Of a stretch of 39,577 bases of DNA, positions 11,676 to 33,858 are shown in pieces (within the stretch, counting starts at the first letter, position 1; the number at the start of each line of letters is the position of its first letter). The notes below the pieces were generated by a model that was given only the letters and a program-made list of their open reading frames with translations, had not been told where the DNA came from and ran no database searches. The DNA is from a virus, in IMG/VR virus record IMGVR_UViG_3300035168_000170, positions 1 to 39,577 of that record; one strand, 5' to 3'. Position numbers and translations under genes: made by a program.

Positions 11676-12548
11676 ATGGCTGTCACCCTGTCCTCAGTCC
11701 CCGGCCCGAAGAACCAGATGACGACAACTCTTAAGCGGAACCTGACCCTGGTTAGCCCGAACACCCACGGGGCTGACGTGATGGCGTTGCAGCGTCACCT
11801 GCAACGCCATCTTTTCTATGCGGGGGACCTCGATGGCATCTACGGGGTCCTCACCGCACAGGCCGTGTTCAAGGCCAAATATTGGCTGGGTTACGCAGAG
11901 CCGACCCAGATCGCAGGGCCGGCGTTCTTCAAGTTCATCTCAGGAGCAGCTGTCCCTAGCGCAGAGATGAAACGTCGGATCGCTGCGAGACGGAGGGAGG
12001 CCGAGGTTCGTCTCACCGCCCAGCAGGTCATGGCTCAGAAGGCGGCACGTTATCTCGGGCGGGAAGAGGACCCGGAGGGAAGCAACCATGTCCCTGGGAT
12101 CACCGATTGGTATCGCCGTGGGGCGGTCGACTACCAGCCTTGGTGCGCGATCTTCGTGAGTCGCTGCGCCTTTGAGGCCGGGGTCGATTTCCTATACCAC
12201 TACTGTCCGTCCATTGTCAGTGACGCAGAGCAGGGTCACAACGGTCTGTCGGCTGTGAAGTTCAGCCAGATCAAGACCGGTACCATCTCAACTTACGATT
12301 TCCAGGGCGACGGGGTGGCGGATCACGCGGGGATCGTGGTCGAGGAACTCCATTTGCAGCGCTGGGTGCCGAACAGGCTACAGGAAGCGAAGCGGGAGTT
12401 CGGGCACCAGGGGCCAGACGAGTTCTGGGCCATCGAGGGGAATACGCTCACCGGGAACGACACGGACGGTGGGCACGTAATGATCAGACTCCGGAAAGTG
12501 GCTCTGGTCCGGAGATTCGCCAAGGCCGGGAGGTTGATCAAGACATGA
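11676..12548 (+). CDS. Endolysin: peptidoglycan-binding and CHAP domains, 290 aa
   Basis: This enzyme should cut peptidoglycan cross-bridges or stems at lysis. Residues about 28-88 match a PG_binding_1 module (GADVMALQRHL, DGIYGVLTAQAV). A helical linker (95-125) follows. The CHAP-type amidase/peptidase domain covers about 140-275. Cys157 lies in QPWCAIFVS, His217 in DHAGIVVEE, and Glu254/Asn256 in WAIEGNT, the expected triad. No signal peptide or membrane span is visible, so export needs a holin. The start is uncertain because the nearest ribosome-binding site is 19 or more bases away inside a hairpin; Met15 (MTTTLKRN) is an alternative. Confidence 0.88.
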   Translation: MAVTLSSVPGPKNQMTTTLKRNLTLVSPNTHGADVMALQRHLQRHLFYAGDLDGIYGVLTAQAVFKAKYWLGYAEPTQIAGPAFFKFISGAAVPSAEMKRRIAARRREAEVRLTAQQVMAQKAARYLGREEDPEGSNHVPGITDWYRRGAVDYQPWCAIFVSRCAFEAGVDFLYHYCPSIVSDAEQGHNGLSAVKFSQIKTGTISTYDFQGDGVADHAGIVVEELHLQRWVPNRLQEAKREFGHQGPDEFWAIEGNTLTGNDTDGGHVMIRLRKVALVRRFAKAGRLIKT

Positions 12549-14293: not shown

Positions 14294-15019
14294 ATGCCGT
14301 GGTCAGTTACAAAAGACGAGGCGGCGTGTTCAGCAGCGAAGCCGTGGGCTGTCAAGAACAAGGACACCGGGAAGGTGATGGGGTGCCATGCAACTGAGGC
14401 TGACGCTAAGAAGCAGCAGTCAGCTCTCTATGCTCAAACAGAGGATGCGGCGGCGTTGGTTGCAGTGGACAGGATGCGTATCGTTCGGTCCGCTACGCTC
14501 AGTGTTCCCGCTGCCCCGCTCCCAATCCTCACCACCGTACCCAATGTCCCTCTATACGAGGTCGGGATGGAGTTTCCGGCCTCAACGGGTCCCGTCACAT
14601 TTACCTTCGAGGATCTTGCTGCGTCGGTGGCCGCTCGTTCTGATCCGACAGTACCTCGACCCAGGGTCAAGCTCGGTCACACCGATCCTCGCTACAACGA
14701 CTCAAACGTCTTCGACGCCGCACCAAATTTTGGTTTCGTCGACAACATGCACACGGTGGGCGATGGACACATCGTTGCGGCAGATCTGGTTGGTGTACCG
14801 GTCTGGCTTGCAAACATCATGCCTGTTGCATACCCTTCACGTAGCATCGAAGGGTGGTTTGGATATCATGCCAATTCGGGGCGCGAGTACCAGTTCATTG
14901 TGACTGCGCTTGCCCTGCTCGGTGTCTGCTTCCCAGGCGTGATGTCCCTAGCAGATCTTCCCCTGATGTACGGGGACGAGCAACCGTCATTTGTAACCAT
15001 TCAGGAAGGAGGGGAATGA
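14294..15019 (+). CDS. Prohead protease, Mu gpI-like, 241 aa
   Basis: Maturation protease that trims scaffold and head proteins. The first 50 residues form a small Cys-containing module common in front of actinophage proteases: PWAVKNKDTGKVMGCHAT, then ADAKKQQSALYAQ. The core begins at about residue 80: KLGHTDPRYND with His, GFVDNMHTVGDGHIVAADL, WLANIMPVAYPSRSIEG with the serine-like motif, and TALALLGVCFPGV. These are the usual landmarks of the Mu I-like family. It ends in an ATGA overlap with the next gene, whose N-terminus looks like the usual C-terminal part of such proteases. Confidence 0.8.
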   Translation: MPWSVTKDEAACSAAKPWAVKNKDTGKVMGCHATEADAKKQQSALYAQTEDAAALVAVDRMRIVRSATLSVPAAPLPILTTVPNVPLYEVGMEFPASTGPVTFTFEDLAASVAARSDPTVPRPRVKLGHTDPRYNDSNVFDAAPNFGFVDNMHTVGDGHIVAADLVGVPVWLANIMPVAYPSRSIEGWFGYHANSGREYQFIVTALALLGVCFPGVMSLADLPLMYGDEQPSFVTIQEGGE

Positions 15020-16026
15020 ACAGCCGGTTCGTGGCCTGCCGTGCCGCCGAAGGCGTAGTGGCAGCAACCTTCGCCGTCGACGACCTGCGACGTGCGTTTT
15101 ACGACGACTGGGCGCAGGGCGACCGGTACTGGTGGTGGATCAGGATGATCTTCCTCGATCCCAACGAGCTGATCGTCGACGACGGAGAGGACAACCTCTA
15201 CCGCATGGTGTGGAGTGTCGACGGCGACGCAGCAACGTTCGGAGAGCCACAGCCGGTTCGCATCGAGTACGTGGACATCGCGGCGAGGTCGGAAGCGGTA
15301 TCAGCCGCAGCCGACGCGATGGCCTCAGTTCGTGAACAGGCGCAAATCGCCGCCCGCTACAACAGTCGGGAAGGATCCCGGCCAACCGCAAGCACAGGAG
15401 GAGGTTCGATGACACCAGAGCAGATCGCAGCGGCCAGGCTCCTTCTCGGACTGGACGCGACGCTCACGGACGAAGAGGTCGAGGCGAGAGCCGCCCCGCT
15501 TCTCACCGGAATCCAGGCCGGCGAAGAGGGCGCGGAGCCTGCCCCGCCAGCCGACGATCCAGGGACGACCGACGACGAGTCCGGGGAGACCGAGGACGAG
15601 CCAGCCGTGGCCGAGCCTGCCGGTGTGGCCTCGCGCGCCGACGCCGGAACAGTCCGGGTCGACCAGACGATGCTCGCTCAGCTGCGCGCCGACGCACAGG
15701 CCGGTCGCGAAGCTCGGGCGATCCAGCTCCGCGCGGATCGCGAGCGCATCGTCGACGCGGCGATTCAGCAGGGGCGCTTCGCTCCTTCTCGCCGCCAGCA
15801 CTACCTCCGGTCGCTGGAAGTCGACCCGGAGGGCACGACCGCGCTGATCGACTCGCTGGCGGAGGGACTCGTCCCTGTCAACCAGCGGGCGGTCCAGCCG
15901 AGCGAGACCGCAACGTCGGCGGGCTATCCCGCCGAGTGGCTTCCGGATGTCCAGATCCGGAACCGCAACATCCAGGCGCAGGCCACGCAGGGAGTCCGGC
16001 CTCGCGTCATGAACGACGCCGCATAG
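15016..16026 (+). CDS. Protease C-terminal-like/scaffold protein, 336 aa
   Basis: The start is the ATG at 15016 after AAGGAGGGGA, overlapping the protease stop (ATGA). Residues 1-100 (YWWWIRMIFLDPNELIVDD, LYRMVWSVDGD, FGEPQPVRIEYVD) resemble the C-terminal part of actinophage proteases. Residues 132-336 look like a scaffold: a helical start (MTPEQIAAARLLLGL), an acidic disordered middle (about 165-205), then RADRERIVDAAIQQGRFAPS and a C-terminal part like Mu-type scaffold tails. A strong internal start at 15409 could give the scaffold alone. It lies between the protease and decoration genes. Confidence 0.8.
   Translation: MNSRFVACRAAEGVVAATFAVDDLRRAFYDDWAQGDRYWWWIRMIFLDPNELIVDDGEDNLYRMVWSVDGDAATFGEPQPVRIEYVDIAARSEAVSAAADAMASVREQAQIAARYNSREGSRPTASTGGGSMTPEQIAAARLLLGLDATLTDEEVEARAAPLLTGIQAGEEGAEPAPPADDPGTTDDESGETEDEPAVAEPAGVASRADAGTVRVDQTMLAQLRADAQAGREARAIQLRADRERIVDAAIQQGRFAPSRRQHYLRSLEVDPEGTTALIDSLAEGLVPVNQRAVQPSETATSAGYPAEWLPDVQIRNRNIQAQATQGVRPRVMNDAA
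15409..16026 (+). CDS. Candidate internal-start scaffold product, 205 aa
   Basis: In frame with the 336-aa gene, the ATG at 15409 has CAGGAGGAGGTTCG directly upstream, one of the strongest ribosome-binding sites in the window. It falls exactly where the protease-like part ends and the scaffold-like part begins (MTPEQIAAARLL). Nested scaffolds made from an internal start are known in lambda (C/Nu3) and Mu (I/Z). Here the product itself is inferred from sequence only. Confidence 0.6.
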   Translation: MTPEQIAAARLLLGLDATLTDEEVEARAAPLLTGIQAGEEGAEPAPPADDPGTTDDESGETEDEPAVAEPAGVASRADAGTVRVDQTMLAQLRADAQAGREARAIQLRADRERIVDAAIQQGRFAPSRRQHYLRSLEVDPEGTTALIDSLAEGLVPVNQRAVQPSETATSAGYPAEWLPDVQIRNRNIQAQATQGVRPRVMNDAA

Positions 16027-16449: not shown

Positions 16450-17478
16450 ATGATGCAGACATTGCTCAAGCAGCTCGACAGGCTGAGCGTCGAGAAGCTC
16501 GCCGCACAGGGCCACGACCTGGGCCACGGCGAGAGGTTCGTCGCTGCCCGCGCCGAGCCGGGAGTGGCAGCAGCCCTCCAGCCGGGAGCGGTGGTAAACC
16601 CGCTCGCGCCACCGACGATCTCAGGGACCACGGTCACCGTCGACTTCGCGCTCCGGAACGTCTCGGAGGTCGTGACGCCGATGATCGTGGACATCACGCT
16701 GCAGCGGTTCTTCGTCGACCGGGTCTTCACGAACGGCGGCGGTGTGACCGGCGGTGCGGTGGTCTACACCGAGGTCGAGGCGAACGACGCCTACGCCGCT
16801 CGTGACGTGCAGCGCGTGGAAGCCGGGATGGAATTCCCGGAGATCACGTTCCAGCGGCGCGTCCCGAAGATCGCCACCGTGGAGAAGTGGGGCGGCAAGT
16901 TCCGGATCACCTGGGAAGCCAGGGATCGGAACAACGTCTCCGAGTTCACGACGGCGGTCCGCCAGCTCGCCAACACGATCGTCCGCAAGATCAACCAGAT
17001 CGGCATCGCGAAGATCGACGCCGCGATCACCGCCGGTTCCCGGACGGTGACCGGCGTGAACTGGTCCACCGTCGTCACCACCGGCTCGTCGGCGTCGAAC
17101 CACACGCTCTGGCCGGCCAGGGACTTCGGCAAGGCGGCCTCGACGGCGGCTGTCGAAGAGATGGGGATGCAGTACACCCTGTGGATCCTCAATCCGCAGG
17201 AGTACGCGAACCTCGCCTCCATCTACGGCGACAACCTCAACGCCGTTCTGGAAGGCTTCAACATCAGCCTGTTCGTGACGAACCGCGTCGCGGCGGGCAC
17301 GGCGTACGTGGTCGCAGAGGGCATGGTCGGGGAGATGCGGTTGGAGCAGCCGCTGCAGTCCCGCTCGTGGGACGACCCGAACGGGATCGAGCAGACGTGG
17401 GTCCAGTCCTCGGTCCGCCCGCTGTTCTTCGTCAACAACCCGTTCGGTCTGCTCAAGTTCACCGGACTCGCGGGCTAG
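16450..17478 (+). CDS. Major capsid protein, 342 aa
   Basis: Main shell protein, expected to have the HK97 fold. ATG at 16450 (or 16453) follows AAAGGAGGG. The N-terminal 60 residues are helical and Ala-rich, as in capsid proteins with a cleaved or flexible N-arm. The landmark region FPEITFQRRVPKIATVEKWGG followed by FRITWEARDRN and LANTIVRKINQIG matches a capsid family of actinobacterial phages. The end has FFVNNPFGLLKFTGL. Length, position after the decoration gene and composition all agree. Confidence 0.9.
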   Translation: MMQTLLKQLDRLSVEKLAAQGHDLGHGERFVAARAEPGVAAALQPGAVVNPLAPPTISGTTVTVDFALRNVSEVVTPMIVDITLQRFFVDRVFTNGGGVTGGAVVYTEVEANDAYAARDVQRVEAGMEFPEITFQRRVPKIATVEKWGGKFRITWEARDRNNVSEFTTAVRQLANTIVRKINQIGIAKIDAAITAGSRTVTGVNWSTVVTTGSSASNHTLWPARDFGKAASTAAVEEMGMQYTLWILNPQEYANLASIYGDNLNAVLEGFNISLFVTNRVAAGTAYVVAEGMVGEMRLEQPLQSRSWDDPNGIEQTWVQSSVRPLFFVNNPFGLLKFTGLAG

Positions 17479-18436: not shown

Positions 18437-18925
18437 ATGGCCGGTTCGGACGTAATGGCGAACATCGCACGTGGTCGGATGGTCCAGTACTACGACAACG
18501 TCAAGAACAACTCGCCAGCGAACAGCGCCTTCGTTTACGTTCTCCTCCAGGACACAGGCCTGGACGCGGACGACACACTCCGTGACTTCGACACCCTGGC
18601 GACGCTCATCGCCGCCAACACCGAGGCCACGTTCACGAGCTACGCCCGCAAGATCGTCACGGACTCGGACCTCGCAGCACTCCCGTCTCCAGACGACACG
18701 AACAACCGGTTCGATTTGGACATGCCGGACTGGGTCTTCGCGACCGCAGGCGGCGCGTCCAACAACACGATCCAGAAGCTCGTCGTCGGCTACGACGCCG
18801 ACACCACGTCCGGTACGGACGCCAACATCGTCCCGTGCCTGCTCCTCAACGTCAACATCGTGACGGACGGCAACCAGCTGACCATCGCGGTCAACGCCAG
18901 CGGCATCTGGCGCTCACAGGACTGA
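18437..18925 (+). CDS. Putative virion structural protein, 162 aa
   Basis: ATG at 18437 is preceded by AGAGGAGGTTAG. It begins MAGSDVMANIARGRMVQYYD. It is beta-rich and acidic with many Asn and Thr (ASNNTIQKLVVGYDADTT, LTIAVNASGIWRSQD), as in many exposed virion proteins. It is the first gene of the module between capsid and connectors and is followed after one base by a gene of equal length. No family identified. Confidence 0.75.
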   Translation: MAGSDVMANIARGRMVQYYDNVKNNSPANSAFVYVLLQDTGLDADDTLRDFDTLATLIAANTEATFTSYARKIVTDSDLAALPSPDDTNNRFDLDMPDWVFATAGGASNNTIQKLVVGYDADTTSGTDANIVPCLLLNVNIVTDGNQLTIAVNASGIWRSQD

Positions 18926-18926
18926 C

Positions 18927-19415
18927 ATGTCGGGGACATACATCGCCATCCCGAAGGCGTCGCATGCAGTCGTGGAGGTCGCGACTGGTACGGCGATCAA
19001 GACGCTCCTGCAGGTCGCTACTCCTTCAACGACCGGCCTGTATGTCGTCGCGTGGGGAATCAGCTTCGACGGGATCGTAGTCACCGACTCTCCGATCCCG
19101 GTCTCATTCATCGATGTCGATGTCGCGGCAACGGTCACGTCTTTCACCCCAGAGAAGTGGGGTGATGACAACGACGAAGCAAGCCTCTGCGTCGGAAGCA
19201 CGACGGCAACGGGGTACAACGCAACAGTCGAGGGGACCATCGGTGCTTCTCGTCTTCTGGACGCACAAGAGGTCCATCCGCAGAGCGGGTACTCGCTCTG
19301 GTATCCGGACTCCAACAAGAAGATGCCTCGGGTCAAGCTGTCAAGGTTCCTGCGGATCCGGTCGCTCGCACCGGCGGGCGTGAACTGCATCCCATGGATC
19401 ATCTGGGAGGAATGA
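18927..19415 (+). CDS. Putative virion structural protein, 162 aa
   Basis: ATG at 18927, one base after the previous stop. It begins MSGTYIAIPKASHAVVEVA and is beta-rich throughout (TAIKTLLQVATPS, LYVVAWGISFDGIVV, VSFIDVDVAATV), with a pattern compatible with a jelly-roll. It ends IPWIIWEE. It belongs to the head-accessory module. Function unknown; a capsid-surface or fibre-base role is suggested only by its place. Confidence 0.75.
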   Translation: MSGTYIAIPKASHAVVEVATGTAIKTLLQVATPSTTGLYVVAWGISFDGIVVTDSPIPVSFIDVDVAATVTSFTPEKWGDDNDEASLCVGSTTATGYNATVEGTIGASRLLDAQEVHPQSGYSLWYPDSNKKMPRVKLSRFLRIRSLAPAGVNCIPWIIWEE

Positions 19416-19627: not shown

Positions 19628-20028
19628 CGGTCTTCATCGTCGAGGTTCTAGCTATCTACGAGGGGATGGGTGCGAGCGTCACCAACCCTCGTCGTAATGC
19701 GCGTGATCAGGATCTCGCATTGGCGGCAAACTCATCCGACAAATACGAACCCGGTGGGGTCCCTCCCGAGGATGAGTATCTCGATGGGTTTGAGGGAAGC
19801 CGCTATGGGTTCGGCTGGAGAGGCCGACAGTTCGTCACGGTGAAGCAGACAGCCGATCAGCTCGGGAACGCTGCCTACAATCAGCTGAACAACAGAGGGA
19901 TGCAGGCTGGCTCCAAGGTGCTCATCTTTTCCGATGACCGTGACCAGGAGCCTGGGGCGGCGACCGGTGATCCGTCCTATCGGAGAATGTGGCCTCGTGC
20001 CAACCCGCCGGAGCCGGACATCGGCTAA
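19624..20028 (+). CDS. Hypothetical structural-module protein, 134 aa
   Basis: The GTG at 19624 overlaps the previous stop (GTGA); a later ATG (MGASVTNP) is an alternative. The product is acidic and Gly/Pro-rich in places (EPGGVPPEDEYLDGFEGS) with a central helix (ADQLGNAAYNQLNNRGMQ) and a disordered Pro-rich end. It ends by overlapping the next ATG (TAATG). No family recognised. Confidence 0.7.
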   Translation: MTVFIVEVLAIYEGMGASVTNPRRNARDQDLALAANSSDKYEPGGVPPEDEYLDGFEGSRYGFGWRGRQFVTVKQTADQLGNAAYNQLNNRGMQAGSKVLIFSDDRDQEPGAATGDPSYRRMWPRANPPEPDIG

Positions 20029-20801
20029 TGTCGTACCGGCTTAACGGCACAGATCCATTCTGGCGGGCGTCCATTGGAGCCTTCAATGGCTACGCCTTCC
20101 GCAACTCGGCCCTGTCCGGGGCGACGCTGTTCAAGCGACTTTCGACAGGGTCGTGGCATGGGTTGCATGCGATCGACAACGGGTCGACCGGCAACTACTC
20201 CTACATGTACGAGTTCAACCCGTCAGACCAGATTGCCGCAGATATGACCACTGCGAACCCGTTCAGTTCGACGGCTACATTCGCCGATTCGACGAACTGG
20301 ATCATCATGGGGTTCACGTGGACAGGTGGAACAAGCGCGGGCAACTGGGTCTGGAGATACAAGATCGGCGCGGGTGCATGGTCCAGTGAGAACGAGACGA
20401 ACCCAGGCAGCAATGCCACAACCGCAGGGAGCGGATACAGACACCTGATCGGCAATGAGGCTGGTCTGCTCGACGACACGAACACAGATTTCTGCTGCGT
20501 AGGCTTGATCAAGTCCAACCTGTCTCAGGCTTCCTTTGAGAGCCTGAACATGACGGCGTTCACGTCTTGGCAGTCGGTGTTCACCGGCGCAGGCGCAGCG
20601 CTCTGGGGATTTGAGACGATCGCATCTCAGACCGATCGTGCTGGGAACGGGGCCAATGAGTCTTCACGCTCCGGCGGCATCACCCTGGTGAGCGATCCCC
20701 CCGGTTGGTCTTGGGGTGCAGCAGCAGCTGCCAAGGTTCCTACTCAGCGCTGGTCTCGTCGGCGGAGCGGACTTATTGCTCCTGCGGGGTTCGGTAGATG
20801 A
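20028..20801 (+). CDS. LamG/concanavalin-like beta-sandwich protein, 257 aa
   Basis: The start is the ATG at 20028, overlapping the previous TAA. It begins MSYRLNGTDPFWRASIG. Aromatic and Gly-rich strands (NGYAFRNSALSGATLFKRL, WIIMGFTWTGGTSAGNWVW, YRHLIGNEAGLLDD) suggest a concanavalin/LamG-type jelly-roll, a fold often used to bind sugars. The C-terminal 25 residues are basic (QRWSRRRSGL). It lies directly upstream of the repeat protein, with an ATGA overlap. A surface-exposed, glycan-binding virion protein is likely; the fold is inferred by eye. Confidence 0.6.
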   Translation: MSYRLNGTDPFWRASIGAFNGYAFRNSALSGATLFKRLSTGSWHGLHAIDNGSTGNYSYMYEFNPSDQIAADMTTANPFSSTATFADSTNWIIMGFTWTGGTSAGNWVWRYKIGAGAWSSENETNPGSNATTAGSGYRHLIGNEAGLLDDTNTDFCCVGLIKSNLSQASFESLNMTAFTSWQSVFTGAGAALWGFETIASQTDRAGNGANESSRSGGITLVSDPPGWSWGAAAAAKVPTQRWSRRRSGLIAPAGFGR

Positions 20802-23080
20802 GGAACGTACGTCACGCGCCGATCCCGAAGTCTGGTCCACAGACAGTCACACTCGGGATGGTCGTTGAGGCAGAGCCGCTTTTCGCTCTTTCCGTAGCGG
20901 AGACAGCGACTCTCGGTCTTCTCCTTGAGAAGGAGACAGGCCTTGCTACCTCCACCATTACGGGCCAGACCTACACGCTTGGACAGGTCGTCGAGTCCGA
21001 GCATCTGCTGTCTACCGCCGCAGCCAAGACCGCGACGATGGGGATCCTCGCGGAGAAAGAGAATCTCTTCGCGGCATCCTCTGCCAAGACGGCGGGTCTG
21101 GCCATTGTCCAGGAGAAGGAGCTTCCCCTTATCCTGGCCATCGACAAGAAGGTGCAGCTCGCTCTCATTACAGAGAGAGAGTCCAGCTTCCCAGCCGCGT
21201 GGGGAGCGATCCACACACTCGGAATCGTCGTCGAGAAGGAACTCTCTTTCTCGTCGTCCATAGCGAAGCTGGCCACTCTCAACCTGCTTACGGAGAAGGA
21301 AGCAGGCACATTCTCCGACGTTATCCAGGGTGGGGGCGCACCGGGCGGACCGGTTACTTTCGAGTCAGCTGGGGCTGGCGCGGACGAGGTCAACAATGAC
21401 GCGTCGATCGCGGTTGCCTATCCCTCAGGGGTTTCTTTGGGGGATCTTCTCATCTTGCAGGTAGAGGCAGGCATTCACTCGACCGGGTTCAACGACCCAT
21501 CCGGGTGGTCCCGACTGCCAGGACTCTCTGCCGACGTGAACTTCGGTACGGTCGGCACCATCGGAGGGACCTGCATCGCGGCGTGGTACAAGTGGGCAAC
21601 CGGATCCGAGTCCGGGAGTCTGACTGTCACCCGTACGACCGCGACAGATTTCTTCATCGGCAGGATGTACTGCTTCACCGGATTCGGTACGACAACAGGT
21701 GACCCGTTCACCGGCACCAGCACGAATACCGGGACTGACTCGACCATCGAAACTCCGTCAGCTGGGCCTGCCGCTGCTGACAACGACCTCGGGATCGCTC
21801 TGATCTGGGTTGGCGACGACAACGCAATCACGCCGGCTGATGAGCTTACTGAGACGATCGAGTGGTCCGAGCCGGTTGCCGAAATGTTGTCCACCACCGG
21901 CAACGACGGGGCGATGGGCATCCAGACCTGTGCCACGGTCACAGCTGGAGTGGCCATCCCGGCCAACCGTATCACGATGGCAGCTGCTGACCCGTGGTAC
22001 GTGTGGGTTGGAGTCGCAAAGACCGGCGGCGCAGTCGGGCAGACTGTCACCCTGGGGCAGGTCAAGGAGAAGGAATCTTCCTTCGCCCTAGTGATGAGCG
22101 AAATTGCGACGCTAAGCCTACTGCTGGAGAAGGAATTCGGGCTGGCATCGCCTGTTACGAAGATCGCAGCACTGGGCATGGTTCCAGAGCGCGAGAATTC
22201 GTTCGCCCTCTCGATGAGCAAGTCGCTGACCCTGGGTCTCGTCACCGAGAGAGAGACCACTCTTCCGCTAACCGCATCCGAGGTCGTCTCGCTGAGCCTC
22301 ATCGTCGAGCGCGAGCTACCGCGTCCGCTGACCATGGCGAAGCTGGCGACTCTGGGTCTGTTGACAGAGCGCGAGTCTTTGTTCGGCATTTCCATCGGTG
22401 CTGGTCAGACGATCAGCCTGGGGATGGTTGTCGAGAGGGATGGAATCTTCTCTCTATCTATCTCCGAGACAGTGACCTTGGGTCTGCTGCGCGAGAGGGA
22501 ATCTCTTGTGAGCCTCTCTCTCGACAAGCGCGCAACCCTTGGAGTTGTGTCCGAGCGCGAGACAGGTCTGTCTCTCACCTCGGCCAAGCTTGCTTCTCTC
22601 TCTCAGATCACAGAGAGGGAGTTCTCGCTCCTGCTGTCGCTGAGCAAGCTGTATACCACAGGATTTGTGACAGAGCGTGAGGCTGTGAGGCCGCTAACAG
22701 CCTCACGCATTGCCTCTTTGGGGTTTGTCGTCGAGCGCGAGTTCCCGATGCCGACTACAAGCCAGGGTGGCCAAATCATCACAATCGGTTTCGTGGTCGA
22801 GCGGGAAAGCGGGCGCATCCTCGTCACATCGAAGATCGCGAACCTCTCCCAGTTGATCGAGCGCGAGGCTCCATACCACGCAGCGCTTTACAAACTCTTC
22901 ACTCTGGGCCTGATAACGGAGCGGGAGCTACTGCTAGCGGCCTCCTCGTTCCAGGGAGACCCCGCCACGGTTCTCCCTGAAACGGCGGGTGGCGAGCTGG
23001 TATTCGGGGCTGCCGGAGCACTCTCCGGTCCAGGGAGAAGCGGAGAGCTGGTCACATCCAATCCGGGGAGTGTGAGCTAA
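20798..23080 (+). CDS. 23-repeat virion protein with inserted jelly-roll-like domain, 760 aa
   Basis: ATG at 20798 overlaps the previous stop (ATGA). After 13 residues come 8 tandem repeats of 20 residues (to about 175), an inserted domain (about 182-412), then 15 more repeats (about 415-718) and a short Gly-rich tail. The repeat reads roughly T-x-TLGLL-x-ERE-x-x-F-x-LS-x-SK, with an acidic-basic ERE or EKE core in almost every copy. Three copies are 22 residues long and carry a GQ insertion before the next repeat. The insert contains GVSLGDLLILQVEAG and WYKWATGSESG, as in phage jelly-roll domains. Probably a fibrous virion protein of the head-accessory module. Confidence 0.8.
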   Translation: MRNVRHAPIPKSGPQTVTLGMVVEAEPLFALSVAETATLGLLLEKETGLATSTITGQTYTLGQVVESEHLLSTAAAKTATMGILAEKENLFAASSAKTAGLAIVQEKELPLILAIDKKVQLALITERESSFPAAWGAIHTLGIVVEKELSFSSSIAKLATLNLLTEKEAGTFSDVIQGGGAPGGPVTFESAGAGADEVNNDASIAVAYPSGVSLGDLLILQVEAGIHSTGFNDPSGWSRLPGLSADVNFGTVGTIGGTCIAAWYKWATGSESGSLTVTRTTATDFFIGRMYCFTGFGTTTGDPFTGTSTNTGTDSTIETPSAGPAAADNDLGIALIWVGDDNAITPADELTETIEWSEPVAEMLSTTGNDGAMGIQTCATVTAGVAIPANRITMAAADPWYVWVGVAKTGGAVGQTVTLGQVKEKESSFALVMSEIATLSLLLEKEFGLASPVTKIAALGMVPERENSFALSMSKSLTLGLVTERETTLPLTASEVVSLSLIVERELPRPLTMAKLATLGLLTERESLFGISIGAGQTISLGMVVERDGIFSLSISETVTLGLLRERESLVSLSLDKRATLGVVSERETGLSLTSAKLASLSQITEREFSLLLSLSKLYTTGFVTEREAVRPLTASRIASLGFVVEREFPMPTTSQGGQIITIGFVVERESGRILVTSKIANLSQLIEREAPYHAALYKLFTLGLITERELLLAASSFQGDPATVLPETAGGELVFGAAGALSGPGRSGELVTSNPGSVS

Positions 23081-23805
23081 TGTACGTTGTCGGCTTCACA
23101 GACTGGACCCCCACCGCGAGGTTCGACTCCCTCCCGTGGACCCAGGCGCGCATCGAGGAATCCATGAACCGCGAAGGGCCATGGGTTGCTCTGGAAGTGA
23201 AGAACATCACGCCGCTCGACACGGACCCTGCCCACCCGAAGTCGCGCTCCTTCACGACCGAGCTTGCCACGATCCAGACCGGTGGCTGGTATCGCATCGT
23301 CTGGTTGGACAGCACCGGTGATCAGGAGCAGCCAACCACTCCCATCCAGAACACGCCGGCTTACAGCTACACGCCGACGAACGCCATGGTCGGAGGTCTG
23401 CTCAGGACCAGGACCATCATCCCCACCGGCCAGGAACTCGGCTACTTCACGATGGAGACCCGCCCGACCTCGGAAGAGGTCCAGGGCTTGATCCAGGTCG
23501 CCGTCCGTGACGTGTCCCGCGACCTGGGGCGCGAGGTACCGGCAGAGTTTTACGACGACGCTAGGGGATTGACCGCGCTTCGCACAGCGATGCTCGTTGA
23601 GCTGACCTACTTCCCGGAGCAGGTCGCCGCGAACATCTCCCCGTACGAGCAGTACAAGGTCCTGTACGACGAGAACCTGATCAAGCTTCTGGAAGCGATC
23701 AGTCGTGACCCAGATGCAGATCCGGATACGGGCACAGGCGGGATGCCGGAATACTACTTCCCTGCAAACGATGGCGGCCTGGTTGGCTGGCAGACGGTGA
23801 TGTAG
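23080..23805 (+). CDS. Head-tail connector/adaptor protein, gp6-like, 241 aa
   Basis: ATG at 23080 overlaps the TAA of the repeat-protein gene (TAATG). The N-terminal part (MYVVGFTDWTPTAR, then ITPLDTDPAHP and WYRIVWLDSTGD) looks like an extra beta domain. The C-terminal half (TSEEVQGLIQVAVRDVSRDLG, MLVELTYFPEQ, YEQYKVLYDENL) is the helical pattern of gp6-type connectors that dock under the portal. The position just before the completion proteins fits. Confidence 0.65.
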   Translation: MYVVGFTDWTPTARFDSLPWTQARIEESMNREGPWVALEVKNITPLDTDPAHPKSRSFTTELATIQTGGWYRIVWLDSTGDQEQPTTPIQNTPAYSYTPTNAMVGGLLRTRTIIPTGQELGYFTMETRPTSEEVQGLIQVAVRDVSRDLGREVPAEFYDDARGLTALRTAMLVELTYFPEQVAANISPYEQYKVLYDENLIKLLEAISRDPDADPDTGTGGMPEYYFPANDGGLVGWQTVM

Positions 23806-24389
23806 TGCCAGCTGACCCCGTAGAGTTCACTATCAAGACGTTCGGCGTGGAGACGGCGGCTGCCGCGATCGAATCTCTGGGCTGGCAGGCCACCAACGTC
23901 AAGCCGGCGATGGAGGAAATCTACGAGGTCATCCTGGACATCGTCGACGAAACCTTCGACACGGAGGGCGCACGAGGCGGATTCAAGCCTTGGCCACCGA
24001 ACACTCCTGTGACCATCGACGAGAAAGCGAGATTCGGCTTGGGGCCAGGAGTTCTAGTCTCGTCCGGTACGCTACGGGACGCGATGACTTCTCCTCGTCA
24101 TCCGTACCAGAGTGCTCGGATCCTCAAAACCCACATCGTCTTTGCACCGAAATCGATGCCACGGAAGCGCAAAGGCAAAAGCAGGCGTGGGTCATACAAC
24201 TACGGGCGTCTGCACCAGACTGGTGAGGGGAACATGAAGAAGCGCCCCTTCATCCGTTTCACCTTCGATGATCAGCAGGCCTTCGCCAAGGAGATAGAGC
24301 GGCACATCATGAAGATCGCCCGAATGATGGCTATCTCTCAGAAACTGTCCAAGGGACCCCTTGGCCGATCGTTTGGACCATTCAGATAA
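23805..24389 (+). CDS. Tail completion/virion morphogenesis protein, Mu gpG-like, 194 aa
   Basis: The GTG at 23805 overlaps the previous TAG (TAGTG). The end of the first half holds LVSSGTLRDAM, and the second half holds YNYGRLHQTGEG and RPFIRFTFDDQQ. These are the conserved landmarks of the Mu gpG/virion-morphogenesis (tail completion) family: strand S-G-x-L, then H-x-x-G and RPF. A basic loop RKRKGKSRRG lies between them. It would complete the neck before the tail joins. Confidence 0.8.
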   Translation: MPADPVEFTIKTFGVETAAAAIESLGWQATNVKPAMEEIYEVILDIVDETFDTEGARGGFKPWPPNTPVTIDEKARFGLGPGVLVSSGTLRDAMTSPRHPYQSARILKTHIVFAPKSMPRKRKGKSRRGSYNYGRLHQTGEGNMKKRPFIRFTFDDQQAFAKEIERHIMKIARMMAISQKLSKGPLGRSFGPFR

Positions 24390-25300
24390 TGGGCGTCCAA
24401 GTCGTCATGGTCCCGGACGTGCGCGGCATGACTCCGTCTCAGGCCGCGAATGCGCTCGTGGCTGCCGGAGTCATCGGCCCGAGCGAGGCAATCCTGGCCC
24501 CGCAGACGGACCATGACGCTGACATCGCTCTCGGGTTGGCGATCTACACATCCCCGATCGCAGGTCGCATCGTCAACCCTGTCGAGCCGATCACGATCTT
24601 TCTCAACCCGGACATTCCTCCGGTCCCAGACCCGGATCACGGTGGCTCTATCTCCGTCATCGAGCCGATCTTCTCCGCAAATCGGTTGGATAACGCAGCT
24701 GAGGCCACTCTGCGGAACTGGATGCCGACATACATCAAGGATCTCTGTCTGCAGAACGGCATCGCCCATTCGCTCGACGATCCGAATCATCTGGTACCTC
24801 CAAGATCATACAACGTCCGGAACGATCAGGCGCGTTGGCCGGAGGAACAGATGCCAGCGGTGGTCGTGGTCAACACCGGGATGGCCCGACCACCGCGCAT
24901 GTACGGGGACGGACGTTACAGCGGATTCTGGCGAGTAACTGTCCTGACCTATTGCCACGGGATAGACAAGACCACGACGAACAGGAACAACCAGATTTAC
25001 GCTGCTGCCGTCAGGGCAATCTTGTTGCAGAAGAGAACTCTCGGTGGGGTCGCCGCTGGGGTCGAATGGGAGGCTGAGGACTACAACGAAGCGACGACAG
25101 ATCCGCAGGGAACCCGCACGATGGCCTCATCAGCTATCACCATGGTTTTCGAGGTAGAGAACATCATCAACCGCGAGGGCGGTCCACGGGAGACAGTTCC
25201 TCCCACGCCAGACACGATTCCTGGCAGCGTCTGGGGTCGTGTACTCACCACTTTCCTACATTTGTTCCGGCGAATGCCGGGTGAGCCACTCGACAGCTAG
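24389..25300 (+). CDS. Tail terminator-like protein with N-terminal PASTA domain, 303 aa
   Basis: ATG at 24389 overlaps the previous stop (TAATG). Residues about 6-72 match a PASTA module: VPDVRGMTPSQAANALVAAG, then TSPIAGRIVNPVEPITIFL. A Pro-rich linker follows. Residues 90-265 carry the tail-terminator/completion pattern: PAVVVVNTGMARPP, GRYSGFWRVTVLTYCHG, NRNNQIYAAAVRAILLQ and TRTMASSAITMVFEVEN. PASTA modules normally bind peptidoglycan fragments or serve as folded spacers in cell-wall kinases and PBPs. Presence in a tail protein is unusual. The tail terminator caps the tube. Confidence 0.75.
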   Translation: MGVQVVMVPDVRGMTPSQAANALVAAGVIGPSEAILAPQTDHDADIALGLAIYTSPIAGRIVNPVEPITIFLNPDIPPVPDPDHGGSISVIEPIFSANRLDNAAEATLRNWMPTYIKDLCLQNGIAHSLDDPNHLVPPRSYNVRNDQARWPEEQMPAVVVVNTGMARPPRMYGDGRYSGFWRVTVLTYCHGIDKTTTNRNNQIYAAAVRAILLQKRTLGGVAAGVEWEAEDYNEATTDPQGTRTMASSAITMVFEVENIINREGGPRETVPPTPDTIPGSVWGRVLTTFLHLFRRMPGEPLDS

Positions 25301-25613: not shown

Positions 25614-27047
25614 ATGCCACGTCCGGGAACTGAAGTCGTCATCCGCGAGCTTCCGCCTCCCCGCGGTGCGCCAACCGATGTCGGAGTCGCATACGTCGTG
25701 GGCCTCACGGAGAGGGGTCCGCTCGTCCCGGCTCTCTGCCGGAACATGTCCGACTACGTCCGCATCTTCGGCGATCGCGTGACCTACGGGTTCGTCTACG
25801 ACTGGCTCGACGGCTACTTCCACGAGGGAGGTCGCAGGGTCTACGTGAGTCGTGTCGTCGGGCCGGCGGCAATCATCTCGTCGAAGAACCTGCTGGACGG
25901 AACGTCGGCGATCTCTCTCGTCGTCACCGCCAAGAGTCCTGGCGACTGGGGGAACACCCTCGGGATTGCGGTCGTCGCCGGTAGCGTCGGCGGCTCGTTC
26001 GTTCTCGTCCTCTACCGTGGCGGTGTGGAAATCGAGAGGTCGACCGATCTTCTCGACAACGCAGCCGCTGTCGCGTGGGGCGCACAGAACGACTGGGTTA
26101 CCATCGCGCTCGGCGCGTCCGCCCTCGACCCGGCGGTCGTTGCTCTGTCGGCTCTGACCGGCGGCACCGACGACCGCGTCAACGCGGTCGATGCGAACTG
26201 GCAGACCGCGCTCGATGCCATTTCCAAGGACCTCGGTCCTGGGCAGGTGTCGATGCCGGGTCGCACGACCGGCACGGCACACACGGCCCTGCTGAACCAC
26301 GCCGAGGCTCGGAACCGGGTCGCTCTCCTGGACCTGCCGGACTCGTCGTCGAAGTCCACGCTCAAGGCAGCGGTCGCGGCCATGGGCCTCAACCGCCGTT
26401 GGGGTGCCGCATTCTCCCCATGGGCGAAGGTTCCTGGCGTCGTGGCGGGGACCACTCGTACGATCCCGTACTCAGCAATCGAGGCGGGCATCATCGCACG
26501 GAACGATGTTACGTACACGGCGAACGTGGCGTCGGCGGGTGACCTGGGGATGTCCCTCTTCGCGACGGGACTGAGCCAGGTGCCATGGTCGGACGCCGAC
26601 CGGGAGGACCTCAACGAGCATGGCGTAGACATCGCCATCACCAAGTTCGGCGGCATCCGGACGTACGGATACCGGACGGTGGTCGACCCGGTGGCCGAGC
26701 CGAACTGGGTCGAGTTCAGCGGTTCTCGCCTGCTGATGCAGATCGCGGCGCTCGGGGGTCGGGTCCTCGAATCGCACGTGTTCGACCAGATCGACGGTCG
26801 TGGTCGGCTGTTCTCCCAGATCGAGGGGGAGATGACCGGCATTCTGCAGCCGATGTACGAGGCGGATTCGCTCTACGGATCGACTCCCGCAGAGGCGTTC
26901 AACGTCGACGCCTCGTACCCGAACGTCAACACGGACGAGACGATCGCAGCCCGCGAGCTGCATCTCGTCGTCGCCGTGAGGATCAGCCCATTCGCAGAGT
27001 TCGTGCAGATGGAACTGGTCAAGGTCTCCGTCCAGCAGACGCTGTAG
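25614..27047 (+). CDS. Tail sheath protein, 477 aa
   Basis: The contractile outer layer of the tail, which drives the tube through the cell wall. It begins MPRPGTEVVIRELPPPRG, followed by VGVAYVVGLTERG, the classic N-terminal signature of phage sheaths. The C-terminal part has FGGIRTYGYRTVVDP, LLMQIAALGGRVLESHVFDQ (a long helix) and LHLVVAVRISPFAEFVQMELVKV, the expected sheath C-terminal domain. ATG follows one base after the previous TAA. Length is typical. It is followed by the tube gene. Confidence 0.93.
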   Translation: MPRPGTEVVIRELPPPRGAPTDVGVAYVVGLTERGPLVPALCRNMSDYVRIFGDRVTYGFVYDWLDGYFHEGGRRVYVSRVVGPAAIISSKNLLDGTSAISLVVTAKSPGDWGNTLGIAVVAGSVGGSFVLVLYRGGVEIERSTDLLDNAAAVAWGAQNDWVTIALGASALDPAVVALSALTGGTDDRVNAVDANWQTALDAISKDLGPGQVSMPGRTTGTAHTALLNHAEARNRVALLDLPDSSSKSTLKAAVAAMGLNRRWGAAFSPWAKVPGVVAGTTRTIPYSAIEAGIIARNDVTYTANVASAGDLGMSLFATGLSQVPWSDADREDLNEHGVDIAITKFGGIRTYGYRTVVDPVAEPNWVEFSGSRLLMQIAALGGRVLESHVFDQIDGRGRLFSQIEGEMTGILQPMYEADSLYGSTPAEAFNVDASYPNVNTDETIAARELHLVVAVRISPFAEFVQMELVKVSVQQTL

Positions 27048-27061
27048 AAGGGAGGTGAACT

Positions 27062-27526
27062 ATGTCGACGACTCCTGGCGGTACACGTGCTGACACCTGG
27101 GATGTCAAGGTGGGCATCATTCCGCCTGGACAGAGCAACCCCATCGGGTTCGGCACGTACGACCAGCAGGAGGGCGGCGATGTGGACTCGGAAGAGTTCA
27201 CGTGGAAGCCCGGAGGGATGAAAGACCCCGAATCCCTCGGAGGTTCACGGACCGTCGAGAACCTCACCATCCGGCGTCTCTACAAGCTGGGACGCGACCA
27301 CATCGAGTCTGACCGGCTGATCGGCTGGGTCGGCAAGGCTCGGGCCATCATCACCAAGCAGCCCCTCGACCAGGAAGGGAACGTCTGGGGCAAGCCGATC
27401 GTCTACCGTGGAATCCTCAAGCGCGTGGGGTTCCCGGACCACGACTCCACCTCGTCGGACGCAGGTCTGATCGAGATGGAGTTCACGGTCGACGGCATGC
27501 CCACTGGTATGCAGAAGGCTGGGTAA
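27062..27526 (+). CDS. Tail tube protein, 154 aa
   Basis: ATG at 27062 is preceded by GAAGGGAGGTGAACT. It begins MSTTPGGTRADTWDVKVG. Size, beta-rich sequence (ESLGGSRTVENLTIRRLYKLGRD, VYRGILKRVGF, LIEMEFTVDG) and position between sheath and chaperone all fit the inner tube of a contractile tail. Tube proteins stack as hexameric rings around the tape measure. Confidence 0.85.
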   Translation: MSTTPGGTRADTWDVKVGIIPPGQSNPIGFGTYDQQEGGDVDSEEFTWKPGGMKDPESLGGSRTVENLTIRRLYKLGRDHIESDRLIGWVGKARAIITKQPLDQEGNVWGKPIVYRGILKRVGFPDHDSTSSDAGLIEMEFTVDGMPTGMQKAG

Positions 27527-27550
27527 CCATCAGTCACCACGGGAGGCACC

Positions 27551-28084
27551 ATGACTGATTCAGAGAGCATCACGGAAGTGGGGGCCGCTCCGGCGGCTCC
27601 CAATTCCATCCTCGACTCCATCCGCGAGCAGCACAAGCGGATGACCAGTGATCACTCCTTGATGGAGGCGATCCCTGGTTACGATTCGCTCTACGTGAAG
27701 TACCGTCTTCTGACCGTCGACGGCGACATCAAGCGGATCAGCAACAAGATCAACCGGGAGTACAAGGACGACATCGATCGTGCCTTCTACTCTGCGATCG
27801 ATGCATTGGTCGCATCCTGCGAGGGCTTCTACTACTACGACGGGGAGCAATTCCATCCTCTCGCGGAATCCTTCGGGCCGGACGAACCCCCGGTCCTGTA
27901 TGGACCCCGGATGGCGGAATTTCTCGGGGTGGAGGCCAACACAGCACGTGAGGTCGTCAAAGCCGTCTTCGGGTACAACGAGCCGGCGATCCTGCAACAT
28001 GCGCAGGTCGTCACCGGCTGGATGGCTGGGACCACTCAGAACGCCAACAACGAGTTCATGGCGAGCCTGGGGGAACGGCCCTAG
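27551..28084 (+). CDS. Tail assembly chaperone, short (zero-frame) form, 177 aa
   Basis: ATG at 27551 is preceded by GGGAGGCACC. The product begins MTDSESITEVGAAPAAP. It has a charged helical middle (KRISNKINREYKDDIDRAF) and an acidic C-terminal half, and ends ...LGERP. Its place between the tube and tape-measure genes, and the downstream overlapping frame, match the gpG/gpGT type of tail chaperone. The chaperone loads tube subunits on the tape measure and is not expected in the virion. Confidence 0.8.
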   Translation: MTDSESITEVGAAPAAPNSILDSIREQHKRMTSDHSLMEAIPGYDSLYVKYRLLTVDGDIKRISNKINREYKDDIDRAFYSAIDALVASCEGFYYYDGEQFHPLAESFGPDEPPVLYGPRMAEFLGVEANTAREVVKAVFGYNEPAILQHAQVVTGWMAGTTQNANNEFMASLGERP

Positions 28085-28296
28085 GCGAGGATGATGGTGG
28101 AACGAACCCCATTCATCTGGCGGTCGATGTCGCCCTCGCCGGGATGGACCCCATGCGATTCCTTGAGTCAGACAACTTCGTGGACCAGGCTGTGATGTTC
28201 TATATCAGCCAGCGGTGGATCCGTCGCCGTCAGGAACTCGACAAGTCGCTGGCCCAGGACATCGCCAACTCGATCTGGAAGGCTGTTAAGACGTGA
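27551..28296 (+). CDS. Tail assembly chaperone, -1 frameshifted form, about 248 aa
   Basis: A -1 shift near the end of the short form, at CTG GGG GAA (28067-28075), opens a frame that runs on to TGA at 28294-28296 and adds 74 codons. The extension reads LGEDDGGTNPIHLAVDVALAG in part (broken), then DPMRFLES and SQRWIRRRQELDKS. It has no good start of its own and ends with a GTGA overlap with the tape-measure gene. This is the GT-type product needed for tail assembly. The exact slip site is inferred. Confidence 0.78.
28069..28075 (+). other. Frameshift site GGGGGAA
   Basis: A run of five G followed by AA in the last codons of the short chaperone form. A tRNA on GGG at 28070-28072 can slip back one base onto GGG, after which GGA is read in the -1 frame. 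The zero frame stops at 28082-28084, four codons after the slip codon. Confidence 0.7.
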
Positions 28297-30365
28297 GCAC
28301 ACCGCAGTGGGTGATGGTCCGTCTGGAGATGCAGAACGCGCAGCGCTTCATCGCGCAAGCGAGAGCCGCTGGTGCGTCTGTCCGGCAAGTCGGACACGCT
28401 GCAGACCGGACGGGCCAGTCCCTGCGGACCGCTGGGAACCATGGATTCTGGTTCAACCAGGCCATGTTCACGGTTCGTCGTACGGTCTACGGAGTCACGC
28501 TCGCACTCGGTGGTTTGGTAGCTGCCGCTGGAGCGATGGGCTTCAAGTTCAACCAGTCGATGGAGCTGAACCGGCTGGCGTTCACCAGGTTCCTCGGCTC
28601 TACAGAGGCTGCTGACCAGGAACTGCACACACTTTTCGAACTGGCTGCGCACACGCCGTTCGAGTTCACTCAAGTCGTCGATGCTACGCGCAAGTTCCTC
28701 GCGTTCGGATTCTCCATCGACGAGTCGAATGCCCTCCTGCGCGACACCGCAGATGCCGTCGCGGGAATGGGTCTTGGCGGGGACGCCATCGACAGGGCTG
28801 TCCTGGCTCTCGGTCAAATGAGAACCGCCGGGCGTGTCCTCGGACAGGATCTTCGGCAGCTGCAGGAGCTGGGTCTGTTCTCGCCGGAAGATTTCCAGAA
28901 GAGACTTGGGGTTGGCCCAGAGGACTTTGGCCAGATCGGCCAGTTGGGCATCCCATCTAAACTCGCCATCGACGCCATCACCGCGTATTGGCGCGAGAAG
29001 TTCGGTGGCGCAAGCGCCGACTTCCAGAAGACGTTCACTGGTCGACTGACCACGCTACGTGACTACGGGTCGCAGCTGTTCGGCGCGATCACGAAGCCTT
29101 GGTACGACCAGCTGTCGAATCAGATCCTCCCGCTGCTGATCCACATCGCGATCACGTCAAACAAGGCGTTCCAGGAGGGTGGCCTCACCGGCGTCCTGGC
29201 GAACGTAGACAAGCAGCTAGGCAAGGGCACCAACCTAGCCGGCCTGTTCACCAACCTGACAGATGTCTTGCATGAGCTTCTCGATGTTCTCCAGCCTCTG
29301 GCGGAGTCGTTCCTCATCGCGTGGGTTTCGTTGTCTCCGGGTGAGCACACCCTTCCGATGCTGGCGTTCGGGTTGAGCGCAATCGGCCATGCGCTTGAGG
29401 TTCTGAAATACCCGCTTGCGGTTATCATCGGCCTGCTCATCATCGAGCGCTCTGTTACTCTTGCGGCGGCGTTCGCTACGAAGATCTGGTCTGCAGCAAC
29501 CGCCATTGCGACATTCGTAACAGGGCGAGCTACGAAGGTTAAGAAGCTATACGTCTTCTGGATGGGCCTGGAAGCGAAGTCTCTCAGGGGTCTGGTCGGA
29601 GCGATTAGGAGCTACCTCTTCGCCACCAAGACGGTCGAGGTTATCCAGAATCGCGGCGTCTTCAGGAAGTCTGTCTTCATGAACGAGGGGAAGATAGCCA
29701 AGGCTGGTCGCGCGATGTGGGGATTCGCTGTAGCAGTCTGGGCCACTGTTCCGGCGATCTGGGCACAGACCATCGCACTCCTGGCAAACCCGATCACATG
29801 GATCATCCTTGCGGCTGTCGCTCTCATCGCTATCTTCGTCATCTTGATCTGGAAGTGGAAGGCGTTCGGAGACAAGATGAAGGACCTCTGGCATTGGCTG
29901 GTCGCTCACTGGTACATGATCCCCATCTTTGGGACCATGATCAAGGCTATCGACCTGCTGATCGATCTGTTCGGGCATCTCAGGGGTGCGGTAGTCTACG
30001 TGAAGAATGCGGTTGTTGACCTTTATCACTGGGTCATCAAGCTGCCCAGGTGGTTTGTCAAGGGGATGGGCGGAAAGAGTGAGCTTTTCCGATCACTTCT
30101 TCCTCCGCTTGGACCAACCGCAGCAACAGGAGTTTCCGTTGCGAGTGGTGGTATCGGCTGGGTAGGTGAGCGCGGACCAGAGCTTCTGCAGCTCCCACGC
30201 GGTGCACGGGTAACCCCTGTTGGCAAGTCGTCCCCCATCGAACTCGATCTTGGCGGTCAAATGGCCGGCGGCGGAGGGACTATCATTGTTAAGCTCGTGG
30301 TCGATGGTCGTGTCCTGGCCGAAACGGTCGCACGTGCAAACGAGACGAAAGCAGCGAGGCGTTAA
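28293..30365 (+). CDS. Tape measure protein, 690 aa
   Basis: The GTG at 28293 overlaps the chaperone stop (GTGA). It begins VSTPQWVMVRLEMQN. Landmarks: RFLGSTEAADQELHTLFELAA and FTQVVDATRKFLAFG of the tape-measure N-terminal family, several hydrophobic helices (about residues 64-85, 365-400 and 470-530), and the C-terminal GWVGERGPELLQLPRG motif. At the usual 1.5 angstrom per residue a 690-residue tape measure implies a tail of about 100 nm. No muralytic domain is visible. Confidence 0.92.
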   Translation: MSTPQWVMVRLEMQNAQRFIAQARAAGASVRQVGHAADRTGQSLRTAGNHGFWFNQAMFTVRRTVYGVTLALGGLVAAAGAMGFKFNQSMELNRLAFTRFLGSTEAADQELHTLFELAAHTPFEFTQVVDATRKFLAFGFSIDESNALLRDTADAVAGMGLGGDAIDRAVLALGQMRTAGRVLGQDLRQLQELGLFSPEDFQKRLGVGPEDFGQIGQLGIPSKLAIDAITAYWREKFGGASADFQKTFTGRLTTLRDYGSQLFGAITKPWYDQLSNQILPLLIHIAITSNKAFQEGGLTGVLANVDKQLGKGTNLAGLFTNLTDVLHELLDVLQPLAESFLIAWVSLSPGEHTLPMLAFGLSAIGHALEVLKYPLAVIIGLLIIERSVTLAAAFATKIWSAATAIATFVTGRATKVKKLYVFWMGLEAKSLRGLVGAIRSYLFATKTVEVIQNRGVFRKSVFMNEGKIAKAGRAMWGFAVAVWATVPAIWAQTIALLANPITWIILAAVALIAIFVILIWKWKAFGDKMKDLWHWLVAHWYMIPIFGTMIKAIDLLIDLFGHLRGAVVYVKNAVVDLYHWVIKLPRWFVKGMGGKSELFRSLLPPLGPTAATGVSVASGGIGWVGERGPELLQLPRGARVTPVGKSSPIELDLGGQMAGGGGTIIVKLVVDGRVLAETVARANETKAARR

Positions 30366-31063
30366 TGGCCGACACTTATATCCTTAGGCCGATCGCGAGC
30401 CATCTTCCACAGGTTGTCTGCCTGCGCGGGGCAGGTCCGCCGATCCTGTCTGGAGGATACGGCGCGTGGGATGTTGTCGATCGTCCCCACCGGCCTGGGA
30501 TCACAAATTGGACGGGTCGAGCACCCTTTTCGATGCAAGTCCCGATCCTATTCGACGGTTGGGCAGAAGAGAACAGCGTCGAGGGTCCATGCACTAACCT
30601 CTCTCGTCTTGCTCAGTCTCCTGGCGCGTTCACCCCACCGCCGGAGCTTTTCATCACCGGCGGTGTGCCGCGACAGGGTGATCGTTGGGTGATCTCTGAC
30701 ATTTCCTGGGGCAACATGGCGATCTGGGTTCTTAGGAATGGGAAGCGCTTCCGAGTGCGGCAGGATGCGAATCTGACGCTACTGGAATCGATCAAGCCTG
30801 ATCTGGTCAAGACTCGCGGCGACATGCCCGGTACCGACAGAAGCCGCACAAAGCACAAGTCCAACAACAGCAACCCCGGATACCATCTTTACACGGTAAA
30901 GGATGGCGAGAGTCTTCGGAGCATCGCCGCCCGTGAATACGGCGATGCTGCCCAGTGGAAAGTAATCGCGGAGGCGAATGGACATCGCGGGTCCAGCGTC
31001 GCAGCAGGATCCATCATCAAGATCCCTGAGACTGCGAATTCTAATCAGGATCGTCGCTTCTAA
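30365..31063 (+). CDS. LysM-containing baseplate hub/tail protein, 232 aa
   Basis: ATG at 30365 overlaps the previous TAA. Residues 1-130 form a structural domain (FSMQVPILFDGWAEENSVE, WVISDISWGNMAIWVLRNG). Residues about 172-222 are a LysM module (YTVKDGESLRSIAAREYGD, then WKVIAEANG and AGSIIKIPE), which binds GlcNAc-containing glycans. This layout matches the gp53/XkdP-like proteins that join tube and baseplate in contractile phages. It ends directly before the hub gene. Confidence 0.85.
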   Translation: MADTYILRPIASHLPQVVCLRGAGPPILSGGYGAWDVVDRPHRPGITNWTGRAPFSMQVPILFDGWAEENSVEGPCTNLSRLAQSPGAFTPPPELFITGGVPRQGDRWVISDISWGNMAIWVLRNGKRFRVRQDANLTLLESIKPDLVKTRGDMPGTDRSRTKHKSNNSNPGYHLYTVKDGESLRSIAAREYGDAAQWKVIAEANGHRGSSVAAGSIIKIPETANSNQDRRF

Positions 31064-33592: not shown

Positions 33593-33858
33593 TGAGTGCA
33601 CTGGACACAAACGACTCGGTACCTCTCTTCAAGGAAGGGAGGATGGTCTGGCGGGGAGTTATCCAGAATAACCCTGGCGACCTGAGCATCAAAGTGAACG
33701 TGATCATCCCCGATATGAATCCCAACATCGTGTGGGGTCCATGTAACTGGCAGTCACGGGATGCGCTGTCGGTGCCCCATCGGGGAGACGTCTGTCTCAT
33801 CATTTTCGACAACACCAAGGAGCCATGGGTTGTAGCCTGGTGGCCCTTCGAGGTTTAG
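33592..33858 (+). CDS. Small OB-fold-like baseplate protein, 88 aa
   Basis: ATG at 33592 overlaps the hub stop (TAATG). It begins MSALDTNDSVPLFKEG. Strands VWRGVIQNNPGD, IKVNVIIPDM and VPHRGDVCLIIFDNT have the pattern of gp5-type OB domains that form the spike base; PHRGDVCLI is the expected landmark. It lies between the hub and the gp25-like gene, as expected for a spike component. It ends just before the next ATG. Confidence 0.65.
   Translation: MSALDTNDSVPLFKEGRMVWRGVIQNNPGDLSIKVNVIIPDMNPNIVWGPCNWQSRDALSVPHRGDVCLIIFDNTKEPWVVAWWPFEV

Follow-up and report, generated by a model that had tools for sequence, protein, structure and literature searches.

A 20-residue ERE/EKE repeat protein and its conserved upstream partner: a candidate accessory neck fibre of a contractile-tailed actinophage

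Fibre I of the Ralstonia podophage GP4 (8JOU) is a chain-like fibre on the collar, in which small repeated subunits are carried by an elongated 'rope' protein; five gp80 dimers are reportedly linked by this rope. In the Anabaena cyanophage A-1(L) five bead-chain neck fibres are carried on a pentadecameric ring (PMC10966104). The gp82-gp81-gp80 genes of A-1(L) resemble the assembly proposed below in that a few genes specify an accessory bead-chain at the neck, with a carbohydrate-binding module at its distal end (PMC10966104); they differ from the locus described here in that each bead is a further copy of a separate protein, and no long repeat-array protein is described. In the Alishewanella phage LSH1 an accessory module of three genes (gp34-36), described as virion-associated, comprises a fibril protein with an HHpred match to 8JOU_g, a protein that resembles adhesins and a tail that defied prediction (PMC13243795). 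The authors of that study could offer no explanation for a poorly predicted region next to the adhesin domain, wondered about a repetitive motif, and named a second phage, Slicko01, as sharing that domain (PMC13243795). In Slicko01, also an Alishewanella phage, we find a 1843-residue protein (L271:11570-17101) with strong 20/40-residue periodicity beside adhesin-like domains.

The locus that we compare with these systems lies in a 39,577-nucleotide stretch of viral DNA from IMG/VR (IMGVR_UViG_3300035168_000170; hereafter the window). Its features, all on the plus strand, are as follows.

16450-17478, plus strand: major capsid protein, the upstream boundary of the slot (phrog_1650, E 2e-56)
18437-18925, plus strand: conserved partner of 162 aa, phrog_26662 family, a proposed fibre bead or adaptor (profile match E 6.8e-24; co-occurrence; AF2; Foldseek)
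18927-19415, plus strand: small protein with relatives beside the module in L086, L061 and L160 (sequence match)
19989-20801, plus strand: lectin-like protein (ConA/LamG-type by eye), the true start of which may lie downstream of 19989
20798-23080, plus strand: gene of the 23-repeat protein (P0001, 760 aa; translation, repeat register, phrog_14065 match)
20843-21328, plus strand: first array, 8 repeats, residues 16-177 (repeat register)
20963-20968, plus strand: GQ insertion 1, in a 22-residue copy (repeat register)
21329-22042, plus strand: inserted domain, about residues 178-415 (relatives at the N-termini of other repeat proteins and in the L070 gene)
22043-22954, plus strand: second array, 15 repeats, residues 416-719 (repeat register; AF2 model)
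22403-22408, plus strand: GQ insertion 2, in a 22-residue copy (repeat register)
22769-22774, plus strand: GQ insertion 3, in a 22-residue copy (repeat register)
23080-23805, plus strand: next gene, in the head-tail adaptor slot (positioned as Hiyaa gp14; itself unmatched in PHROG and Pfam)
23805-24389, plus strand: neck/tail completion protein, the downstream boundary of the slot (phrog_26, E 2e-11)

The genes of the virus run in the order terminase, endolysin, portal, protease, scaffold/decoration and capsid, followed by a set of small genes that ends in the repeat gene; connector genes, tail sheath, tape measure, an M23/lysozyme-type tail protein and baseplate J come downstream. This is the gene content of a contractile-tailed phage; the tail block (sheath, tape measure and baseplate J) occupies 25614-37656. 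The nearest relatives of its capsid and sheath proteins belong to Gordonia, Mycobacterium and Arthrobacter phages. Six such actinophage relatives have no repeat protein in the same slot, which argues that the gene is accessory. The same virus is represented by short contigs in three other metagenomes, and in one of these contigs (L002) the repeat gene is identical at the DNA level. On the evidence set out below we propose, with a probability of about 0.55, that the product of the repeat gene is the long subunit of an accessory fibre on the virion of a contractile-tailed actinophage, with the neck as its most likely site of attachment.

A first-pass annotation, made from the letters of the window, had described the protein as 8 + 15 = 23 tandem copies with a step of 20 residues and three 22-residue copies that carry a GQ insertion, and the repeat register confirms this description. 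The cores of the first array stand at residues 24 (EAE), 44, 66 (ESE), 86, 106, 126, 146 and 166, and those of the second at residues 424, 444, 464, 484, 504, 524, 546 (ERD), 566, 586, 606, 626, 646, 668, 688 and 708. The step is exactly 20 residues except from 44 to 66, 524 to 546 and 646 to 668, where it is 22, and each of these three copies has GQ immediately ahead of the next. The repetition is real and not a product of chance: the lag-20 self-similarity score of the 760-aa protein is 245, compared with a maximum of 36 among 1000 residue shuffles, the lag-40 score is 200, and neighboring lags score below 42. Other elements of the description hold in part. An E-R/K-E core, said to be present throughout, is found in 20 of the 23 copies, the remaining three being EAE, ESE and ERD; and the SK end occurs in about half of the copies (K at repeat position 18 in 52%). 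The array is indeed split by a domain, of about 240 aa (residues ~178-415).

The repeat copies share a mean pairwise identity of 35% as protein and 46% as DNA; by codon position the DNA identity is 51% at positions 1 and 2 and 36% at position 3. Tandem Repeats Finder called no DNA tandem array at the gene. Because the DNA copies have diverged, most of all at position 3, and form no detectable tandem array, we conclude that the array is old and that its protein pattern has been conserved, in agreement with the earlier reading of an old, selected array. A separate observation concerns codon usage: the first glutamate of the core is encoded by GAG in all 23 copies (probability about 7e-4, given 73% GAG in other genes), while the second is GAA in six.

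The sole library match of the repeat protein is to phrog_14065 (E 3.2e-6; window residues 354-705 against model residues 611-961), a family annotated 'unknown function', of which gp13 of the Streptomyces phage Hiyaa is a member. Hiyaa was also reached independently, via a search with a consensus of the ETD-type repeat. A search of IMG/VR for three copies of the pattern G-x-x-x-E-x-[ED] at 60 nt led to 73 proteins with ETD-type arrays by mechanical score. The window copies and these arrays agree in a hydrophobic residue at position 2, G at 3, E at 7, an acidic residue at 9, a hydrophobic residue at 14 and K at 18, the last in 52% of window copies (as above) and 59% in the ETD arrays. The best register between the two is 0, with p 5e-5 over all columns by column permutation; once the three columns used for selection are masked the agreement still exceeds that of 99.8% of column permutations (p = 0.002). 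The commonest longer step in the ETD arrays is also 22 (54 of 82), and their extra residues fall mostly after columns 15-19 (68 of 82), which is where GQ sits in the window, automatic placement of the window's own three insertions being a few columns earlier (10-15).

The phrog_14065 match, the shared register, K18 and the shared 22-residue copies identify the ERE/EKE array as a diverged relative within the widespread family of phage proteins with 20-residue LG...ETD...K repeats, as had been suggested in the first-pass annotation. It is a variant and does not belong to the ETD subfamily proper, because its core is E-R/K-E and not the E-T-D by which that subfamily is defined. No Pfam model covers the 20-residue repeat, and scattered Pfam matches of repeat arrays were unrelated single hits that we attribute to chance. 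Searches of 50,697 phage records with tblastn, using the whole protein and the insert, returned nothing useful. Patterns specific to the ERE version matched the repeat among viral contigs in this virus's own fragments only; none of their other matches was this repeat, those in 84,980 species genomes being charged or low-complexity stretches. Within the viral contigs and species genomes searched, the ERE variant therefore appears to be private to this virus.

Hiyaa gp13, labeled 'minor tail protein', shares with the window protein the 20-residue repeats in the same register, K18 and the combination of globular domains with an array. The two differ in that gp13 has largely lost the E-x-D/E core and has its globular domains at the N-terminus, whereas in the window protein the cores are ERE/EKE and the inserted domain separates two arrays. 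The ETD-repeat proteins from IMG/VR (for example those of L058, L073, L087, L217 and L229) resemble the window protein in the period of 20, in the 22-residue exceptions and in the presence of a phrog_26662 partner; they differ in their E-T-D core and in having polar Q/A where the window has L/V/F.

The partner, which the first-pass annotation had missed, is the strongest clue to the role of the repeat protein. Among genes upstream of ETD-repeat genes one family recurs, phrog_26662, a ~150-aa family annotated 'unknown function' (25 of 138 at the library threshold). With an iterated profile it is found upstream, on the same strand and within about 4.6 kb, in 43 of the 47 ETD-repeat contigs in which two or more upstream genes are present. 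When the search was reversed and started from phrog_26662 only, relatives turned up in at least 257 IMG/VR stretches; in the phage collection the family occurs in six records, from five phages. Where at least 2.5 kb of sequence lies downstream of phrog_26662, a period-20 protein follows in 34 of 52 loci, and in 19 of 27 among the longest; the other 18 of the 52 lack a clear array in the sequence at hand. By way of control, a period-20 protein occurs in one of 29 upstream stretches of the longer loci and in none of six related actinophages without the gene. Near-duplicates among the loci (L234-L239, L245-L249, L121/L162, L063/L129 and L160/L167/L061) mean that these counts are not independent and that effective numbers are smaller; the two-way association is nevertheless strong, and phrog_26662 and the repeat protein make up a newly recognised two-gene module. 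Two loci depart from the usual arrangement: L127 (1472-2360) has two tandem phrog_26662 genes upstream of a single repeat gene, which suggests duplicated bead or anchor subunits, and in L250 a strong period-20 protein lies upstream of phrog_26662 (upstream of position 6900) and not downstream. A search for the family in 379 + 318 bacterial genomes returned no matches and, having no positive control, is uninformative.

The gene that follows the repeat protein is, where it can be named, mostly a head-tail adaptor (phrogs 442, 332, 40, 449 and 211). Hiyaa, Keanu and Galactica have a common order of phrog_26662 (gp12 in Hiyaa), repeat protein and head-to-tail adaptor, and the window resembles Hiyaa in having a phrog_26662 gene before the repeat gene and an adaptor after it, the window's adaptor being assigned by position. 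In the cyanophage Pam4 phrog_26662, a lectin-like protein and insert-type domains lie within the tail block, next to baseplate and tape-measure genes, and the repeats and insert-type domain are fused to a long, apparently tail-hub protein; the module is thus portable. The Pam4 fusion, and the GenBank label 'minor tail protein' in both Hiyaa and Galactica, would also suit a tail or baseplate appendage whose neck-side gene position is incidental. We consider this distinctly unlikely, given that the tail block of the window is elsewhere and that contigs unrelated to one another repeatedly show the slot ahead of the adaptor. We therefore retain the neck fibre for the window, with the proviso that neck attachment is perhaps not universal, because the Pam4 module stands among tail genes.

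The globular parts of the module also recur. With repeats removed from the seeds, and using a small database and lenient thresholds, the inserted domain, a candidate jelly roll in the first-pass annotation, was found to be related to N-terminal domains of the repeat proteins in L065, L087, L152, L072, L127 and others, as well as to the product of a free-standing gene that precedes the array in L070; it has no match in Pfam or the PDB. The lectin-like product of 19989-20801 is related to an N-terminal domain that is fused to repeats in L131 (E 1e-4). Since lectin-like and insert-type domains are fused to repeats in L131 and encoded as separate genes in the window and L070, these domains have been swapped in and out of fusion with the repeats, in the manner of adhesin cassettes.

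In the AF2 monomer of the 15-repeat array (35 rows) each repeat contributes two strands, the first on the V-x-E-R-E core and the second across the SK/TLG junction; the mean pLDDT is 59, with about 76 at best in mid-array. The model has no significant fold match in the PDB or among viral structures (none below E 0.05), and these results do not establish the beta-helix that the first-pass annotation had envisaged. So weak a model fits a need for partners or trimerisation and proves nothing. It would also fit an internal or non-structural protein, packaged, ejected or used in assembly, that has no role at the surface. We regard such a protein as very improbable: lectin-like and insert-type domains recur at the ends of arrays, related actinophages lack the gene, as one would expect if it encoded an accessory appendage, and the similar LSH1 module is virion-associated (PMC13243795).

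The phrog_26662 protein is modeled with greater confidence (49 rows; pLDDT 84, pTM 0.82). Its top PDB fold match in Foldseek is 8jou_a, 'Fiber I and fiber-tail-adaptor of phage GP4'; the match is weak and not significant by E-value (E 0.31, prob 0.60, TM 0.43/0.50), and we treat it as a lead only. No sequence similarity to the GP4 proteins was detected, and searching the PDB with profiles of phrog_26662 or of the repeats gave no homologue, 8JOU being unmatched up to E 10. Matches of the partner to Gag in the PDB vanished with profile search and were set aside as chance.

As the earlier reading had it, the repeat gene lies between head and connector genes, and this placement is conserved in the repeat family, for which reason the best interpretation is a head or neck fibre. 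Of these two sites the earlier reading had named the capsid as a possibility. On a capsid-surface fibre or decoration, phrog_26662 would sit on capsomers or vertices and hold the repeat rod; the module does lie downstream of the major capsid gene in both the window and Hiyaa, small Ig-type linker proteins are known from capsid fibres (PMC12796354), and the capsid fibres of phage 7-7-1 stand on pentamers. The fibre part of that reading is kept. We nevertheless think the capsid an unlikely site, and favor the neck, because the conserved neighbor is on the head-tail adaptor side and the partner's top fold match, weak as it is, is to a fibre/tail-adaptor entry; in addition, the Pam4 module is in a tail gene block.

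If the repeat protein is indeed the long subunit of a neck fibre, its 23 repeats would form an extended, beta-rich rope or rod, the length of which is set by repeat number. The phrog_26662 protein would be present either as beads along the repeats or as their anchor at the neck, a role modeled on the dimeric fibril/adaptor proteins of GP4 fibre I and on gp81/gp82 of A-1(L). The inserted domain and the separate lectin-like protein would then act as binding (adhesin) units for cell or environmental polymers.

More tentatively, phrog_26662 and the repeat protein could represent a widespread and undescribed class of modular appendage, in which each repeat binds a bead or bead dimer and repeat number corresponds to fibre length. 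In such a class, itself doubtful, adhesin domains might be exchangeable and the ERE/EKE array a lineage-specific, charge-altered rope; it is conceivable, too, that uncultivated phages often carry an appendage of this class and cultured ones almost never. The position of the module beside connector genes gives phrog_14065 and phrog_26662, both of 'unknown function', a concrete and testable role, and suggests a fibre with its length written in repeat number. The module may also explain unpredictable 'repetitive' domains in other phages. LSH1 and Slicko01 resemble the assembly proposed for the window in having an accessory module with a fibril protein, an adhesin-like domain and a long, poorly predicted stretch; Slicko01 differs in having an S-x-F-D-V-type motif and no significant phrog_26662 match (best E 0.026).

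Several further features of the genome deserve mention. The head maturation protease, matched as one protein by phrog_3894, is split into two frames (14294-15019 and ~15016-16026), and the presence of the same sequence in L175, from another metagenome, shows that this is not an error of a single assembly. An endolysin-like gene (11676-12548) lies between the terminase and portal genes. The large tail protein at 31064-33592 matches lysozyme/endolysin-type families and has a C-terminal M23 peptidase-like domain, below the Pfam cut-off. Finally, the tail-terminator-like protein at 24389-25300 begins with an N-terminal PASTA domain (Pfam E 1.1e-5), which is unusual for a connector protein and possibly binds the cell wall.
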